From NCBI GenBank assembly GCA_026987955.1, contig JALSME010000102.1:1-36258 (forward strand): a stretch of 36,258 bases of DNA, given 5' to 3'. The notes below the pieces were generated by a model. It did no database searches, was not told where the DNA came from, and worked only from the letters and a program-made list of their open reading frames with translations. Made by a program: the position numbers and the translations under genes. The stretch is from Sulfurospirillum sp. (GTDB lineage: Bacteria > Campylobacterota > Campylobacteria > Campylobacterales > Sulfurospirillaceae). Below are positions 4,729 through 35,357 of the stretch, in pieces. Each line of letters opens with the position of its first letter. The first letter of the stretch is position 1.

Positions 4729-5893
4729 AAACAAAAATATTTTAGTTGGTGTTACAGGAAGCATCGCTATATACAAAACTCTTGAGATTATTCGTCTGTT
4801 TATAAAAGCACGAGCAAATGTAAGAGTTATCATGAGCGAGGAAGCAAAAAGATTTATTACCCCTCTTACCTTTGAGGCTATTAGCCAAAATTGTGTCCTA
4901 CATTCACAAAGTGAAAGCTGGGCAGATGAGCTAAACCACATACACATTGGTAAATGGGCAGATATCTTTCTTATAGCTCCTATAACTGCAAACAGTATAA
5001 ACAAACTAGCAAATGGTATTGCTGATAATCTTCTTACTCAAACCATACTTGCCTTCAATAAACAGGTCATTATAGCCCCTTCTGCGAATACAAATATGAT
5101 TTTAAACCCTATAACTAAAGATAGTTTAGAAAAACTTAGAAAACAAAACTTCATAATCTGTGAACCACAAAATAAACTTTTAGCTTGCTTAGATGAAGGA
5201 ACTGGTGCCCTTGCAGAACCTCAAAAAATCTTTGATATAACTGCTCGTGAACTCTTAAAAGATGATTTTTGGATTGATAAAAAAGTAGTAGTGACAGGTG
5301 GTGGGAGTGTAGAAAAAATCGATGATGTAAGATGTATTACAAACTTTTCAAGTGGCAAACAAGCAGATGCTCTAGCATATGCTTACTTTCTTGCAGGTGC
5401 AGATGTAACACTCATCAGCTCAAAAGAGCCTCTACATGTAGAGCCGATTCTAGTACAAAGCTCATCTGAATTTAAAAGTGCTATTGAGAGCTCTACATGT
5501 AGAGGATGCTACCTTGTAATGTGTGCTGCGATTAGTGATTTTGTCCCAAAACATATAACAAATGGAAAACTAAAAAAAGAGAATCTTGGTCAAGAATGGA
5601 GTCTAGAGCTTGTTAAAAATGAAGATATTCTTTTAAATCTAGATAAAAAAGGTATGAAAACTATAGGTTTTAAGGCTGAGATAGATAAAAATAGTGCTTT
5701 AAAAAGTGCAAAAGATATGCTTGTGAAAAAATCTCTTGATGCTGTTTGCCTAAATGTATTAGAATCTAAAAACAGTTTTGGAAGTAATCAGAATGAAGTT
5801 ACTTTTATTACAAAAGATAGTGATGTTGCACTTAAATTTGCATCAAAACATGAAATTGCAAAACAGATAGTTGAGCTTTCAAAAAACATATGA
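4721..5893 (+). CDS. coaBC: Bifunctional phosphopantothenoylcysteine decarboxylase / phosphopantothenate-cysteine ligase
   Basis: Catalyses two consecutive steps of coenzyme A synthesis. I start it at ATG 4721 (390 residues), where the flavoprotein fold begins (NILVGVTGSIAIYK); an in-frame ATG at 4688 would add 11 residues inside glmU. The CoaC domain shows His73 in HIHIGKWAD, the PSANTNM segment (Asn123) and the active-site Cys156 in LLACLDEG. The CoaB domain shows TGGGSVEKIDDVRCITNFSSGK and KLKKENL. Two exact copies of the palindrome CTCTACATGTAGAG lie inside the CoaB domain, read as LHVE (238-241) and SSTCR (257-261), in a region where the family is loosely conserved. The next gene begins at an ATGA overlap. 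Confidence 0.95.
   Translation: MLKNKNILVGVTGSIAIYKTLEIIRLFIKARANVRVIMSEEAKRFITPLTFEAISQNCVLHSQSESWADELNHIHIGKWADIFLIAPITANSINKLANGIADNLLTQTILAFNKQVIIAPSANTNMILNPITKDSLEKLRKQNFIICEPQNKLLACLDEGTGALAEPQKIFDITARELLKDDFWIDKKVVVTGGGSVEKIDDVRCITNFSSGKQADALAYAYFLAGADVTLISSKEPLHVEPILVQSSSEFKSAIESSTCRGCYLVMCAAISDFVPKHITNGKLKKENLGQEWSLELVKNEDILLNLDKKGMKTIGFKAEIDKNSALKSAKDMLVKKSLDAVCLNVLESKNSFGSNQNEVTFITKDSDVALKFASKHEIAKQIVELSKNI
5430..5443. repeat. Palindrome CTCTACATGTAGAG, copy 1 (inside coaBC)
   Basis: Perfect 14-bp palindrome, translated here as the LHVE stretch of CoaB. It cannot be extended; the flanking bases do not pair. A second copy lies 61 bases further on. See copies at 5491, 9429, 22684 and 34632. 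Confidence 0.85.
5491..5504. repeat. Palindrome CTCTACATGTAGAG, copy 2 (inside coaBC)
   Basis: Identical 14-bp palindrome, read here in a different frame from copy 1 (SSTCR instead of LHVE). The two use different codons, so shared protein sequence cannot explain the identity. A large hairpin between the two copies is also possible. Confidence 0.85.
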
Positions 5894-9044: not shown

Positions 9045-9775
9045 TGCATATAAAGATACAGCTAAGCTATGATGGTAGCAAGTTCAATGGCTTTCAAATA
9101 CAAAACAATCTTCAAAAAGTTAAAACCGTAGCTGGTGAGCTAACAAAAGCCTTCAAACAAGTTAATATAGACACAAATCTAGTTGGAAGTGGAAGAACAG
9201 ATAGAGGAGTTCATGCTATTTCTCAAGTAATCAGCTGCGATATACCAGACTTTTGGTATGATTTAAAAAGACTCAAAAAAGAGTTGAATCGCATAATAAA
9301 ACCAAATATATACATCAAAAATATAGAAGCTGTTGAAAATAAATTTCATGCAAGATTTAGTGCAAAGAAAAGATTATATAGGTATGTTTTGTATAGTGGA
9401 AGTTATCAGCCTTTTTTGAGCGATTATGCTCTACATGTAGAGTATATAGATACACAAAAACTAGATAATATTGTAAAACAATTTGTTGGAATTCACAATT
9501 TTAAAAATTTTAAAAAACAGGGTAGTCAGACTTCATCTGATGTTAGAGAGATTTTTAAGGCAGGTGCTTATAACTACGGTAAATTTACAGTTATATACTT
9601 TTTAGGAAACTCATTTTTAAGAAGTCAAGTAAGAATGATGTCTAATTTCGCACTTGAAACTATGAAAGATAATTTAACTTCTCAGCATTTAAATGAGCAA
9701 TTAAGTTGTATTATCAAGCACTCGACAGGGGTAATACCTTCTAGTGGTCTTTACTTAGCCAAAATTTTTTACTAA
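9044..9775 (+). CDS. truA: tRNA pseudouridine(38-40) synthase
   Basis: Isomerises uridines 38-40 in the anticodon stem-loop of many tRNAs. The 243 residues have the diagnostic active-site loop GSGRTDRGVHA with catalytic Asp53, KFHARFSAKKRLYRY, and the C-terminal NSFLRSQVRMM and STGVIPSSGLYLAKIFY. It is the last gene of the glmU operon and overlaps the convergent dgkA by 21 bases, leaving no room for a terminator between them. One palindrome copy (9429-9442) encodes LHVE around residues 129-133, where TruA proteins often have a Tyr-x-x-His pattern, so it sits in a permissive spot. Confidence 0.95.
   Translation: MHIKIQLSYDGSKFNGFQIQNNLQKVKTVAGELTKAFKQVNIDTNLVGSGRTDRGVHAISQVISCDIPDFWYDLKRLKKELNRIIKPNIYIKNIEAVENKFHARFSAKKRLYRYVLYSGSYQPFLSDYALHVEYIDTQKLDNIVKQFVGIHNFKNFKKQGSQTSSDVREIFKAGAYNYGKFTVIYFLGNSFLRSQVRMMSNFALETMKDNLTSQHLNEQLSCIIKHSTGVIPSSGLYLAKIFY
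9429..9442. repeat. Palindrome CTCTACATGTAGAG, copy 3 (inside truA)
   Basis: Exact 14-bp copy, read as LHVE as in coaBC copy 1. The next bases outward (G and T) do not pair. Confidence 0.85.
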
Positions 9776-20799: not shown

Positions 20800-22227
20800 C
20801 TAACCTAATCTATGTTTTAAAAGTTCATTAACTTTAGCTGGATTAGCTGTACCCTTACTAGCCTTCATAGTCTGCCCAACAAAAAAGCCAAATAATTTAT
20901 CTTTTCCAGCCTTGTACTGCTCAACTTTATCTCTATTTGCTTCAATAATAGTATCAATTAACTCCAATATTGCCCCATCATCGCTAACTTGTTTTAATCC
21001 AAGTTTTTCTATGGCCTCATCTACCTCTATACTATTTTTCATTAAAAAGTCTAGAACCTCTTTAGCCGCTTTTCCACTAATAGTTCCATCTTCTATGCGT
21101 TTTACTAAAGTTCCAAGCTTAATAGCATTTACAGGGGAATTTAAAATTGTGACATCACCACTCAGGCGAGCAAGAAGCTCAACTGTAAGCCAAGTAACAC
21201 TCATCTTAGCTCCCGCACCCTCTTTTATCATTGTTTCAAAAAAGTTAGCCATCTCAATAGCACTAGTAATAACAGCGGCATCGTACTCTTTTATACCATA
21301 TTCAGTAACAAATCTTTTTTTCTTTGCATCTGGCAGTTCAGGAATTTTACTATATTTTTCCATCATCTCATCTGGAATAATTACAGGAAGTAAATCAGGA
21401 TCAGGAAAATAGCGATACTCTGCACTATCTTCTTTTCCTCTCATGCTTACTGTTATTCCTCTTTCAACATTGTAAAGACGAGTCTCTTGAACCACTTCTG
21501 TTTCATAGACACCATCTTCCCAAGCTTCAGTCTGTCTAGTAATTTCAAATTCAATAGCTTTTTGTATAAATTTAAATGAGTTTAAATTTTTAATCTCAGC
21601 TCTTGTATAGAGTTTGGTATCTCCTTCTGGGCGAATAGAGATATTTACATCGCATCTAAAACTGCCCTCCTGCATATTTGCATCACTAATATCAAGATAT
21701 TTCAAAATAGCATGAACTTTTTTTAGGTATTTTAACACTTCATCTGCGCTTCTCATATCTGGTTCACTTACAATCTCAAGCAGAGGTGTTCCAGCACGAT
21801 TTAAGTCAACATGACTATATGCACCATAGTGAGTATTTTTACCAGCATCCTCTTCAAGATGAGCTCTTGTAATACCAATTGTTTTTTGAGACCCGTCTTC
21901 AAAATCTATAACAATCTCACCACCCTCAACAATAGGAATTTCAAACTGACTTATCTGATATCCCTTTGGAAGATCCGGATAAAAGTAATTTTTTCTATTA
22001 AAAATTGATTTTTTATGTACAGTTGCACCAATTGCCGTTCCAAATGCAATAGACTTTTTAACTGCCTCTACATTTAAAACAGGCAATGCACCAGGAAGTG
22101 CTAAACAAACCGGACATACATTTGTGTTTGGTTCATCTCCAAAACTAGTTGGACATGAACAAAATATCTTTGTTTTGGTATTAAGTTGAGTATGGACTTC
22201 AAGTCCAATTACTACTTCAAATTTCAT
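20800..22227 (-). CDS. gatB: Asp-tRNA(Asn)/Glu-tRNA(Gln) amidotransferase subunit B
   Basis: Transamidates mischarged Glu-tRNA(Gln) and Asp-tRNA(Asn) together with GatA and GatC. The 475 residues start with the hallmark [18 protein letters not shown], then the zinc-binding cysteines in CSCPTSF and [28 protein letters not shown] (recognised in parts), [10 protein letters not shown]-like [23 protein letters not shown], and a C-terminal YqeY-like tail with [16 protein letters not shown]. gatA and gatC are not in the window. It is preceded by the long non-coding stretch with the structured element and followed after 4 bases by the K+ channel. Confidence 0.96.
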
Positions 22228-22313
22228 CTAAATTACCTTACTTTATAAAATATCGAATAGAGACAAATCCAAGATTGTCTTTCATCTATGATTCCGCCAA
22301 GAGCGAAACAATC

Positions 22314-22585
22314 TATAGGGCACCTCTAAAAACCCTTATATCCTCAGAGTTAAAGAGAGAGGTAAGATTGTGCAGAACTTTTTTTGAGTCATAGCCTTAG
22401 CTATGGCGATGAAAAATTCTGTGCAAGATTGCTTCTCTCTTTGGCTCCCTGCGGGCATTATAGCAAATATGCTACTGCTTCGTTGAAATCATTTGAAGCT
22501 ACTAGTAGCTCCTGCATAATTTCGCCTTGCATTAGCAAATTTTCTATAAAGCTGAGGATATAAGGGTTTTTAGAGGTGCCCTATA
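22314..22585 (-). mobile_element. Structured inverted-repeat element, copy E1 (272 bp)
   Basis: The ends are a perfect 34-bp inverted repeat (22314-22347 with 22552-22585), TATAGGGCACCT inward. Inside are two arms. On the minus strand the first arm is closed by TTATAG...GCT with AGC...CTATAA (14 of 16 paired) and holds GCTAATGC, AGGC, GCTTCAAA, AACGAA and CAGTAGC. The second arm is closed by AAAGAGAGA with TCTCTCTTT and tipped by CATAGC-TAAG-GCTATG. There is no open reading frame of useful size and no transposase. It shares length, layout and motifs with the element at 34199. Strand is given as the one on which the shared motifs read forward; this is also the direction of gatB and of the upstream gene. 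Whether it acts as DNA (MITE-like) or as RNA is not known. Confidence 0.75.
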
Positions 22586-22683
22586 CTTATTTTACCATTT
22601 ATTTCTTTTAACTTCTCTAAACCTTTTAGATTCTCACCTGTTTGGTATGTTTAAATAGAATTAAAAGTTGTAGCACTTACACC

Positions 22684-22709
22684 AAGAAGCTCTACATGTA
22701 GAGCTTCTT
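22684..22709. repeat. Extended 26-bp perfect palindrome around CTCTACATGTAGAG, copy 4
   Basis: The 14-bp core (22690-22703) is extended six bases on each side into AAGAAG...CTTCTT, giving 13 perfect base pairs per arm with no loop. It is intergenic, 92 bases downstream of the small membrane protein gene. No T-run follows on either strand, so it is not a standard intrinsic terminator. Confidence 0.85.
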
Positions 22710-22800
22710 CTAAAGTATTTAATTGTGTTTAACCACTTTTCTAGCATGACTTTTAAGAATTTTTTGAAAATATTTTAGGGTTTAAATATAAAAAAATGGG

Positions 22801-29251: not shown

Positions 29252-29272
29252 GATCTTCCTTTAACTTAATTA

Positions 29273-29306
29273 AGGGCACCTCTAAAAACCCTTAATAGAG
29301 TTAAAG
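29273..29306 (-). mobile_element. Remnant of the E1-type element in the flgI leader
   Basis: AGGGCACCTCTAAAAACCCT plus TA (29273-29294) matches the left end of E1 without a mismatch. After a short gap AGAGTTAAAG (29297-29306) matches E1 22346-22355. So it aligns with about 39 bp of E1's left end, with a 5-bp net deletion, and nothing of the rest. It is in the same orientation as E1 and lies between the flgI sigma-54 promoter and the flgI start. Confidence 0.75.
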
Positions 29307-32801: not shown

Positions 32802-33821
32802 ATGAAATATAGATATATAGGAAAAAGTGGACTAAGAGTTACACCAATCTGCTTAGGCACTATGACATTTGGTACTCAAGCTGATAAAAAGATGGCTTTT
32901 AGAATTATGGATAAAGCATATGATAGAGGTATTAATTTTTTTGATACTGCAGAGCTATACCCTGTTCCTCCTAGTGCAGATAAAGCAGGAATTACCGAAG
33001 AAATTATAGGTGAATGGCTACAAACAAAGCCTAGGGACTCTCTTATTATAGCATCAAAAGTTGCTGGTGCTGCTAATGGCTGGTTTGTTCCTCCTATTAG
33101 GCATGGATTAACCGCGATCGATAGATTTCACATAACAAAAGCACTTGATAAAAGTCTAAAAAAACTAAAAACTGATTACATAGACCTGTATCAAGTTCAT
33201 TGGCCAGATATGACAGTACCTATTGAAGAGAGTCTATATGTACTAGATGAGTTCATAAAAGCTGGTAAAATTAGATATATAGGTACTTCAAATGACTCAG
33301 CATATGGACTAACTAAAGCAAATGAGATTTCTAAGTTTAAAAATCTTTCTAGGTTTCAATCTATTCAAAACAATTTTTCTATGCTAAATCAAAGATTTAT
33401 GGACGAGTTAGCAACAGTATGTAAAAAAGAGGACATATCACTTCTACCCTATTCTCCTTTAGCAGGTGGTGTACTGACAGGTAAATACAATCAAAAAATT
33501 CTACCAGATAACGCAAGATTTTCCAAGTATGTAAATAGTAAAAATCCTAGATTACAAGCACAAGCAGCTAGATTTTTAAATGATAGAACCATATCTTCAG
33601 TTGAAAAATATTTGGAGATTGCAAAAGAGCATAATGTTAGCTTAACAACACTTGCAACTGCTTGGAGTATGCATTTTGACTTTATAGCTTCAACTATTAT
33701 TGGTGCAACTACTGATGAGCAACTAGACGATACATTTGCTGCTCTTGATTTTAAAATTAGTAGTGACCTTATGAAAGAGTTAGATGCTGTTCATCAAGAT
33801 ATTTTATACCCTATGGGTTGA
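32802..33821 (+). CDS. Aldo/keto reductase
   Basis: NADPH-dependent oxidoreductase of the AKR superfamily, resembling Tas/YghZ-type members. The 339 residues form a TIM barrel with the full catalytic tetrad: Asp and Tyr in NFFDTAELYP, Lys in IIASKVAGA, His in YQVHWPD. Further marks are GKIRYIGTSNDSAYGL, QNNFSMLNQ, LLPYSPLAGGVLTGKY and the coenzyme-binding C-terminal IIGATTDEQLDD. The physiological substrate cannot be told. It starts a plus-strand group with ychJ, whose start overlaps its stop by 4 bases. Confidence 0.92.
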   Translation: MKYRYIGKSGLRVTPICLGTMTFGTQADKKMAFRIMDKAYDRGINFFDTAELYPVPPSADKAGITEEIIGEWLQTKPRDSLIIASKVAGAANGWFVPPIRHGLTAIDRFHITKALDKSLKKLKTDYIDLYQVHWPDMTVPIEESLYVLDEFIKAGKIRYIGTSNDSAYGLTKANEISKFKNLSRFQSIQNNFSMLNQRFMDELATVCKKEDISLLPYSPLAGGVLTGKYNQKILPDNARFSKYVNSKNPRLQAQAARFLNDRTISSVEKYLEIAKEHNVSLTTLATAWSMHFDFIASTIIGATTDEQLDDTFAALDFKISSDLMKELDAVHQDILYPMG

Positions 33822-34201
33822 TTTTGAGTGTAAATAGTAAATGCCCTTGTGGAAGTGGAATCAAGTACAAAAAATGTTGCAAGCCATACCACGATGGTAA
33901 AACAGCAAACAATGCCCTCATACTAATGAAATCAAGATATAGCGCGTATGCAAAGCAGCAGTATAAATATATAAATAATACATCAAATAAAGAAGAAGAT
34001 ATTGAAAGCATAAAAAACTTTTCAAATAATTCTAAATTTGAAAACTTAAAAATTATAGAGTTTATAGATGGGGAAAATAAAGCTTTTGTAACATTTAAAG
34101 CGACTATTTTTTCTAACGGCATAGATAGCTCATTTTGTGAAAAAAGTAGATTTATAAAAGCTAATAACAAGTGGCTATATCTTGATGGCGAGATTATATA
34201 A
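33818..34201 (+). CDS. ychJ: YchJ-like protein with one SEC-C zinc motif
   Basis: A 127-residue UPF0225/YchJ protein: an N-terminal SEC-C motif (CPCGSGIKYKKCC, residues 9-21) followed by an NTF2-like domain with LMKSRYSAYAKQQYKYI, CEKSRFIKANNKWLYLDGE. Enterobacterial YchJ (152 residues) has a second SEC-C motif after this point; here the protein stops directly after the domain, and the TAA stop codon is formed by the first three bases of element E2. Truncation by the element is therefore possible. The start is TTG 33818 or TTG 33824, without a clear ribosome-binding site. Function is unknown; SEC-C motifs bind zinc in several protein-binding contexts. Confidence 0.85.
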   Translation: MILSVNSKCPCGSGIKYKKCCKPYHDGKTANNALILMKSRYSAYAKQQYKYINNTSNKEEDIESIKNFSNNSKFENLKIIEFIDGENKAFVTFKATIFSNGIDSSFCEKSRFIKANNKWLYLDGEII

Positions 34202-34468
34202 GTACCTAACCCTAAATAACCCCAACTTAAGAATTTAAAAGAAGGGGCTAATGCGAGGCAAAAACTTAAAGTTGCACTTATTGTGCTTCAAAAGTTTTTA
34301 ACGAAACAGTAGCCCCTTCTTTTAAATTTCCTTCGGACGATAAGAGAAAAGCTCTATTGCGTCGTTAGATTAGTTCACCTTAGCTAAGGCTAGGCTTTCA
34401 CTAATCTGCCTAGCACTAAAACTTTTCTCTTATCGCTTAAATTGGGGTTATTTAGGGTTAGGTACTTA
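34199..34468 (+). mobile_element. Structured inverted-repeat element, copy E2 (270 bp)
   Basis: The ends pair over 33 bp with one mismatch (34199-34231 with 34436-34468; the outer 27 bp are perfect). The first inner arm is an 18-bp perfect stem (34232-34249 with 34311-34328) enclosing AATGC, AGGC, a small GCAC/GTGC hairpin, GCTTCAAA, AACGAA and CAGT. The second arm is a 14-bp stem (34338-34351 with 34422-34435), a further 8-bp stem AGATTAGT/ACTAATCT, and the tip TAGC-TAAG-GCTA. No protein is encoded. It fills the whole gap between ychJ and the EamA gene, overlapping the stop of the first and ending one base before the ATG of the second. It is homologous in plan to E1 although nearly all stem sequences differ. 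Confidence 0.75.
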
Positions 34469-34469
34469 A

Positions 34470-35357
34470 ATGCCAGTGTATATCTTACTTATTTTATGTG
34501 TTTTATTTTGGTCTGCAAACTTTATAATAGGAAGAGGAATCCATGATGATGTTGATCCAATACAGTTAGCGATGTTTAGATGGAGTGGTGCGGCAATCAT
34601 TGTTTTACCAGTATTAATCAAAAGTTTTTCAAAAATTAGCTCTACATGTAGAGCTAATTTTCTAATACTCAATATACTAGCAATTCTAGGAATAGCTGGA
34701 TTCAATACAATTCTTTATGTAGGTTTACAAAGTACAACTGCAACAAATGCTCTGCTCATTAACTCTTTTGTACCGATTTTGATTTTGATTTTTTCATATT
34801 TTATACTAAAAATTTCGATAAAATCAATACAACTTACCGGAATTATTCTCTCAACAATTGGAGTGATGTTTTTAATAGCTAGAGGCGAGATATATAATAT
34901 AACTCAAATCACTCTAAACTATGGAGATATATGGGTTTTAGTATCATCATTTACATGGGCATTATACTCTGTTTTAGTTAAATTTAAACCAAAAAATTTA
35001 ACTGATTTTGAGTTCTTCACTACAATTGTTTATATTGGATTATTTTGGATTTTTACTGTATATTTTACAATGGGATATAACCTAATCGAAGATATTACTC
35101 TAATAAAAACCCACTATATGGAATTTGCTTATGTTGCAATATTCCCTTCTGTACTATCATACTACTTTTGGCACAAAGGTATCCACAAAATTGGTGCAAA
35201 TAAAACAGGACAATTTACTCACCTAATGCCATTTTTTGGATCACTTCTAGCATATATATTTTTAAATGAAACACTACATTCATATCATGCACTAGGAGCT
35301 ATACTCATAGGATTTGGAATCTATCTTTCACTATTTACAAAAAAGGAGCTATCATGA
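34470..35357 (+). CDS. EamA/DMT-family transporter
   Basis: Ten-helix drug/metabolite transporter made of two EamA repeats (about 1-135 and 145-292), 295 residues. Marks include FWSANFIIGRGI near the start, LGIAGFNTILYVGLQSTTATNALLI, and in the second repeat WALYSVLVKF and FPSVLSYYFWHKGIHKIGANKTGQFTHLMPFFGSLLAYIFLNE (core GANKTGQFTHLMPFF). The substrate is unknown. Its only visible ribosome-binding site, TTAGG at 34458-34462, lies in the 3' arm of element E2. A 30-bp perfect palindrome encodes residues 55-64 (KISSTCRANF) between helices 2 and 3. The stop overlaps the methyltransferase start by 4 bases. Confidence 0.9.
   Translation: MPVYILLILCVLFWSANFIIGRGIHDDVDPIQLAMFRWSGAAIIVLPVLIKSFSKISSTCRANFLILNILAILGIAGFNTILYVGLQSTTATNALLINSFVPILILIFSYFILKISIKSIQLTGIILSTIGVMFLIARGEIYNITQITLNYGDIWVLVSSFTWALYSVLVKFKPKNLTDFEFFTTIVYIGLFWIFTVYFTMGYNLIEDITLIKTHYMEFAYVAIFPSVLSYYFWHKGIHKIGANKTGQFTHLMPFFGSLLAYIFLNETLHSYHALGAILIGFGIYLSLFTKKELS
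34632..34661. repeat. Extended 30-bp perfect palindrome around CTCTACATGTAGAG, copy 5 (inside the EamA gene)
   Basis: The 14-bp core (34640-34653) is extended by eight bases on each side (AAAATTAG and CTAATTTT), giving 15 perfect pairs per arm inside a coding sequence. It is read in the same frame as coaBC copy 2 (SSTCR). The extension differs from that of copy 4, so only the core is shared. Confidence 0.88.

Follow-up and report, generated by a model that had tools for sequence, protein, structure and literature searches.

The stretch of Sulfurospirillum sp. DNA considered here (the window, 36,258 nucleotides) contains two palindromic elements of about 270 bp, E1 (22314-22585) and E2 (34199-34468), which raise the question of what they are and of which part of them, the ends or the folded inside, is conserved. 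MITEs, small non-coding and non-autonomous transposons, are usually classed by their ends, their insides being regarded as filler that happens to fold. A first-pass annotation, made from the sequence alone, had proposed that E1 and E2 are members of one family under selection for folding, as a structured RNA or a single-stranded DNA substrate. Folding, shuffled controls and an inverted-repeat search all agree with the positions it gave, and the motifs it listed as shared by the two are all there, in the same order. That reading was nevertheless supported only in part, as it missed the transposable element evident from multiple copies, TA or A/T-rich targets and empty sites in relatives: E1 and E2 are MITEs.

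Both elements have a common plan (Table 1), in which a terminal stem of about 33 bp encloses two arms separated by a CCCNNNGGG mini-hairpin (3 bp with a 3-nt loop), the latter being present in 36/36 home-genome elements checked as against 4% of shuffled centres. Their folding energies, -123.1 kcal/mol for E1 (z -12.5 relative to dinucleotide shuffles) and -127.9 kcal/mol for E2 (z -15.2), were reached by none of the shuffles, and no other inverted repeat at that spacing in the window is as strong. The arms themselves are less uniform than the proposed "same two arms in the same order", for those of E2 are a single motif (type 1) in inverted orientation, whereas the second arm of E1 is of a different type (type 2), folding at -56.5 kcal/mol on the + strand and -30.7 kcal/mol on the opposite one. 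The type-1 arm of E1 runs, in order, through stem 1, an A.G mismatch, TGC, the internal loop AAGGC/AACGAA, an 8-bp stem 2 and an apical hairpin. It scores 88.5 bits (E 7e-25) against R1, a covariance model whose training set includes this arm, and 76 bits (E 1.5e-20) against R2, a model built without Campylobacterales. With E-values of about 1e-19 to 1e-25 for the arms of the window, and dozens of copies in the home genome, E1 and E2 are far beyond chance.

Table 1. Features of E1, E2 and a lone terminal repeat in the window, with strand and basis of assignment.
Feature	Position	Strand	Basis or remark
E1, A-type element with flanking TATA repeats	22314..22585	-	element proper about 22318-22581; empty sites in two congeners
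E1 terminal inverted repeat, end 1 (outer part GGGCACCTCTAAAAA)	22552..22585	-	inverted-repeat search
E1 terminal inverted repeat, end 2	22314..22347	+	inverted-repeat search
E1 type-1 arm	22465..22543	-	covariance models R1 and R2
E1 mini-hairpin CCCGCAGGG, between arms	22447..22455	-	mini-hairpin in 36/36 elements vs 4% of shuffles
E1 second arm, type 2	22347..22447	+	better fold on + strand
E2, B-type element, TAAGTACC...GGTACTTA	34199..34468	+	sequence, fold, home-genome copies
E2 terminal inverted repeat, end 1	34199..34231	+	inverted-repeat search, copies
E2 terminal inverted repeat, end 2	34436..34468	-	inverted-repeat search, copies
E2 type-1 arm 1	34240..34319	+	R2 66.5 bits, E 1e-17; R1 71 bits
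E2 mini-hairpin TCCTTCGGA	34329..34337	+	sequence
E2 type-1 arm 2, inverted relative to arm 1	34347..34427	-	R2 57.7 bits, E 6e-15; R1 77 bits
Lone A-type terminal repeat TTAAGGGCACCTCTAAAAACCCTTAA, best read as a scar	29270..29295	+	exact match, 0 expected

The anatomy is that of a mobile element. In the home genome (1.97 Mb in 143 contigs), dozens of copies measure 266 +/- 3 bp, or 262-269 bp in the 14 whose limits were set by hand, and no ORF of at least 80 aa was found inside the elements. Copies of E2 at unrelated sites are 98-99% identical and those of E1 91-94%, and further elements have the same inside with unrelated ends. The terminal inverted repeats, about 33 bp and nearly perfect, cluster into at least nine unrelated classes (nine at a loose threshold); the second arm is the type-1 motif inverted in B, D and other classes, and of a different type in A, C, K and others. 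Elements lie flush against TA or other A/T-rich sites. The E1 site is uninterrupted in two congeners (G232 and G104), where it reads AATCTATATCTATTTT, and is occupied in the home genome as AATCTATA[E1]TATACTTATTTT; the single TATA of the empty sites as against two at the occupied one suits a 4-bp duplication, and the four outermost bases of E1, TATA, look like target sequence and not element. At other targets the repeats are TA or W-rich and 2-4 bp long, with an apparent length that depends on the class (2 bp, TA, in two classes and 3 bp in others). The lone A-type repeat of Table 1 is best read as what was left of a third element, deleted between short repeats inside its palindrome, and about ten similar scars occur elsewhere in the home genome.

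Structured MITEs are an already known kind, bacterial examples being Correia/NEMIS, ERIC, YPAL and RUP, and, as described in the consulted parts of two reviews, they resemble E1 and E2 in size (100-300 bp), in their terminal inverted repeats with terminal TA, in target duplication (apparent at E1), in being intergenic and non-coding, and in having transcripts predicted to fold stably (PMC2229807, PMC10969869). What sets E1 and E2 apart from the structured MITEs reviewed in those parts is one precise inner hairpin found across phyla and many unrelated end classes (PMC2229807, PMC10969869). ERIC was considered as a relative and set aside, as neither R1 nor R2 gave two Escherichia coli copies more than about 7 bits over the ERIC core, and the loops did not align. 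REP/REPIN sequences with their RAYTs are likewise short hairpins, frequently arranged as inverted pairs and bearing conserved unpaired tags, but E1 and E2 are much larger and have terminal inverted repeats and A/T targets (PMC3733652); moreover, their conserved feature is an internal loop, RAGGC/AACGAA, instead of a terminal tag, and they show no link to a Y1 gene. Integron attC sites too are imperfect hairpins in which the stems vary freely and a few unpaired positions are fixed; they offer a resemblance only, the terminal-repeat and target-site anatomy being foreign to them. The claim that the family is undescribed stands for Rfam and for the literature searched, though not for its kind. At the gathering thresholds of Rfam 15 nothing in the window matched, and 20 element-holding loci yielded only two tRNAs; relaxed thresholds gave only chance microRNA-like matches in the E2 region. 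A search of the open-access literature found no report of a MITE inside common to several phyla, which is weak evidence of absence.

The type-1 arm consists of a 10-bp outer stem, a purine-purine mismatch and three pairs (TGC/GCA), followed by the loop RAGGC/AACGAA, an inner stem (eight pairs long in almost every copy) and an apical hairpin. The loop is invariant in the arms, and the stems vary freely. In a hand alignment of 15 home-genome arms, both partners have changed in 27/29 pairs, and 89% of cells are paired, compared with 32-47% when the partners are slid; the arm covariation analysis gave 94.3% of cells paired against 34-49%. A covariance-model search for more copies, which the first-pass annotation had suggested as a check, found them in number (about 65 strong arms in the home genome with R1), their stems freely changing yet paired.

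R1 matches 91/299 genomes of the order, in 30/81 genera, and nearly all the copies examined in other genera lie inside complete terminal-repeat elements. A simple DNA pattern proved unsuitable over the order, where the coding background was too high, and the covariance model was used instead. When 84,980 species genomes were scanned with a stringent pattern, the motif was found beyond Campylobacterota in Oscillospiraceae and other Clostridia, in Acinetobacter sedimenti and in Lactococcus reticulitermitis, and R1 matches MITE-like repeats of Clostridia, Acinetobacter and Lactococcus outside the order. These comprise two-arm elements of 277-280 bp in Clostridia, one-arm elements of 165 bp in Oscillibacter, about 15 one-arm elements with ends TATAGTCGAAG...CTTCGACTATA in A. 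sedimenti, and four arm-bearing loci in Lactococcus. R2, trained solely on foreign (non-Campylobacterales) copies and one viral contig, recovers the three type-1 arms of the window at 76, 66 and 58 bits with no other match in its 36 kb; since the foreign copies were gathered with R1, this serves as a reciprocal check and falls short of independent discovery. An arm conserved across phyla and paired with unrelated ends appears to be new.

Some of these distant copies have settings of their own. In L. reticulitermitis, two tandem type-1 arms of the same orientation (L292, 4174-4340) lie in a ribosomal-protein operon, between rplE and rpsH and antisense to the genes. The one-arm elements of A. 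sedimenti (L374-L390, L355) often lie 9-23 bp past a stop codon, a placement that lets their TATAG end overlap or provide the stop. The pattern also matched 18 times in viral contigs, an arm-like fold being found in one only (L318, from IMG/VR), whose type-1 arm (167-248), with no terminal repeat detected, lies between two genes and antisense to both.

Which strand folds can be read from the mismatches. On the RAGGC/AACGAA strand of 79 non-redundant arms there are 194 G.T pairs against 13 A.C mismatches, and in 37 arms from outside Campylobacterales 66 against 15, whereas the terminal stems of the same elements, a fair control because they were not aligned by the covariance model, have 30 G.T and 35 A.C and no asymmetry. 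Double-stranded DNA alone would give equal numbers, and the arms depart from this. These counts support selection on a folded single strand of the arm, and on one particular strand. The proposed selection on folding is thereby upheld for the arms, with their many copies, varying paired stems and one folding strand, and not for the outer stem of about 33 bp, whose supposed covariation is adequately accounted for by terminal inverted repeats. Across 29 elements with one arm of each type, arm 1 averages -42.6 kcal/mol on the top strand and -30.3 on the bottom, and arm 2 -45.5 on the bottom and -29.8 on the top; nine elements with two type-1 arms behave alike (-44.1 top vs -37.9 for arm 1; -40.5 bottom vs -33.9 for arm 2). 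The top strand thus favours arm 1 and the bottom strand arm 2, and reading inward from either end gives a hairpin that folds. Where a one-arm element lies between co-directional genes, its folding strand is antisense in 26/34 cases (p = 0.003), a count from a small sample with simple ORF calls and one Lactococcus locus entered twice; Acinetobacter contributes 10/12 (alone p = 0.04) and Oscillospiraceae 12/18 (alone p = 0.24). The bias is modest, and insertion relative to replication could produce the same.

As to what moves the elements, the A-type outer end (17-19 bases, AAGGGCACCTCTAAAAA), whose outer part in E1 (GGGCACCTCTAAAAA) also marks one end of a Sulfitobacter IS5-family element, lies there just upstream of the transposase gene (DUF772 + DDE_Tnp_1), on a plasmid. 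E1 and E2 differ from that IS in having no gene, as it does in having no arm in the copy examined, and its second end was looked for and not found. The C-type end (TAGACTTCTTGC[A/G]TAAC) also occurs in Oscillospiraceae elements. No convincing partner end accompanied other plasmid matches to C-type or A-type ends (cyanobacteria, Lactococcus, Azotobacter), and a similarity search found no plasmids similar to E2. Searches of the home genus detected neither IS5-type (PF01609) nor IS630-type (PF13358) transposases; the mover is therefore either missing, hidden by gaps in the assembly or a member of a different family. Given an A-type end at an IS5 gene, no second end and no such transposase in the genus, mobilisation in trans, by IS5-type enzymes, seems likely. 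A Y1/RAYT partner was rejected: the home genome has three Y1 (HUH) transposase genes, with no arms or element ends at any of the three loci, and Y1 occurrence does not track that of arms, one genome (G289) having many arms without a Y1 gene and two others (G091 and G232) Y1 genes without an arm match.

The account we favour, and judge somewhat better than evenly probable, is that of a MITE with trans-mobilised ends and an inner hairpin module that folds as a single strand, probably RNA, with a role in cis. The outer repeats of about 33 bp would be ends recognised by DDE transposases, some at least of the IS5 type, acting in trans and inserting the element into A/T-rich, often TA, sites, and the inside would be a conserved hairpin module of one or two arms per element. 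The arm would fold single-stranded, most likely as RNA, when transcription from outside enters the element; read-in from either side would first produce a correctly folding arm, the one nearer the 5' end on each strand, which may act in cis on the read-in transcript through processing, stability or termination and so make insertions tolerable. The antisense orientation in 26/34 cases fits an effect on mRNA. G.T pairs are tolerated in DNA hairpins too, and REP hairpins are recognised by RAYTs and attC sites by the integron integrase. The main rival, rather unlikely in our estimate, takes the arms to be folded single-stranded DNA, extruded in replication or transfer and recognised by a nuclease or recombinase that drives movement, the outer repeats being mainly structural. 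Strand-specific folding, invariant unpaired motifs and freely varying stems would suit structure-recognising enzymes, and the home genome does have Y1 genes, but these are not linked with the arms, and TA/W-rich flanks consistent with target duplication, together with IS5-like ends, point to DDE transposition.

The arm may instead be the binding site of a conserved host protein (a nuclease, say, or a ribosomal protein) that many MITEs captured independently, the transposon being only its vehicle; that the same loops accompany unrelated ends in three phyla or more, at one or two arms per element, and that a lone arm lies in a viral contig agree with this, but there is no candidate protein and nearly all other copies examined sit in terminal-repeat elements, leaving it quite improbable. 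Selection could be dispensed with altogether if the stems were kept paired by shared descent or by quasipalindrome correction (template switching in hairpins), to which palindromes are prone, and the deletion scars do attest to hairpin-mediated slippage. Such correction would, however, erase internal loops, yet RAGGC/AACGAA and the purine-purine mismatch have remained unpaired from phylum to phylum, and it should treat both strands alike, while G.T exceeds A.C about 15-fold in the arms and not in the terminal stems; we regard this rival as very improbable. Beyond the favoured account of a trans-mobilised MITE with a folding inner module, it is conceivable, if short of probable, that the hairpin is a portable RNA or single-stranded DNA module, serving a cross-phylum factor and joined to many unrelated IS ends, in which case it would define a MITE superfamily by the inside and not the ends. 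The conserved part is the inside, whose fixed loop and 8-bp stem persist in Campylobacterota, Clostridia, Acinetobacter and Lactococcus while the ends differ. The two covariance models provide an end-independent handle for finding such elements anywhere, and the invariant loop makes the reason for the folding of MITE transcripts directly testable.

E1 lies within what is left of a decayed thiE-like gene, so named from its sequence, upstream of gatB (window about 22227-22800, minus strand); the thiE-like gene is intact in the congener G232 (L232, 1194-1739). E2 starts on the stop codon that closes the ORF upstream (33818-34201), and its end is one base ahead of the ATG of the next (34470-35357), so that any ribosome-binding site for the latter would have to come from the end of E2. 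A separate palindrome, CTCTACATGTAGAG, has five exact copies in the 36 kb (5430-5443, 5491-5504, 9429-9442, 22690-22703 and 34640-34653), with 0 expected by chance, and recurs in many flanks genome-wide.
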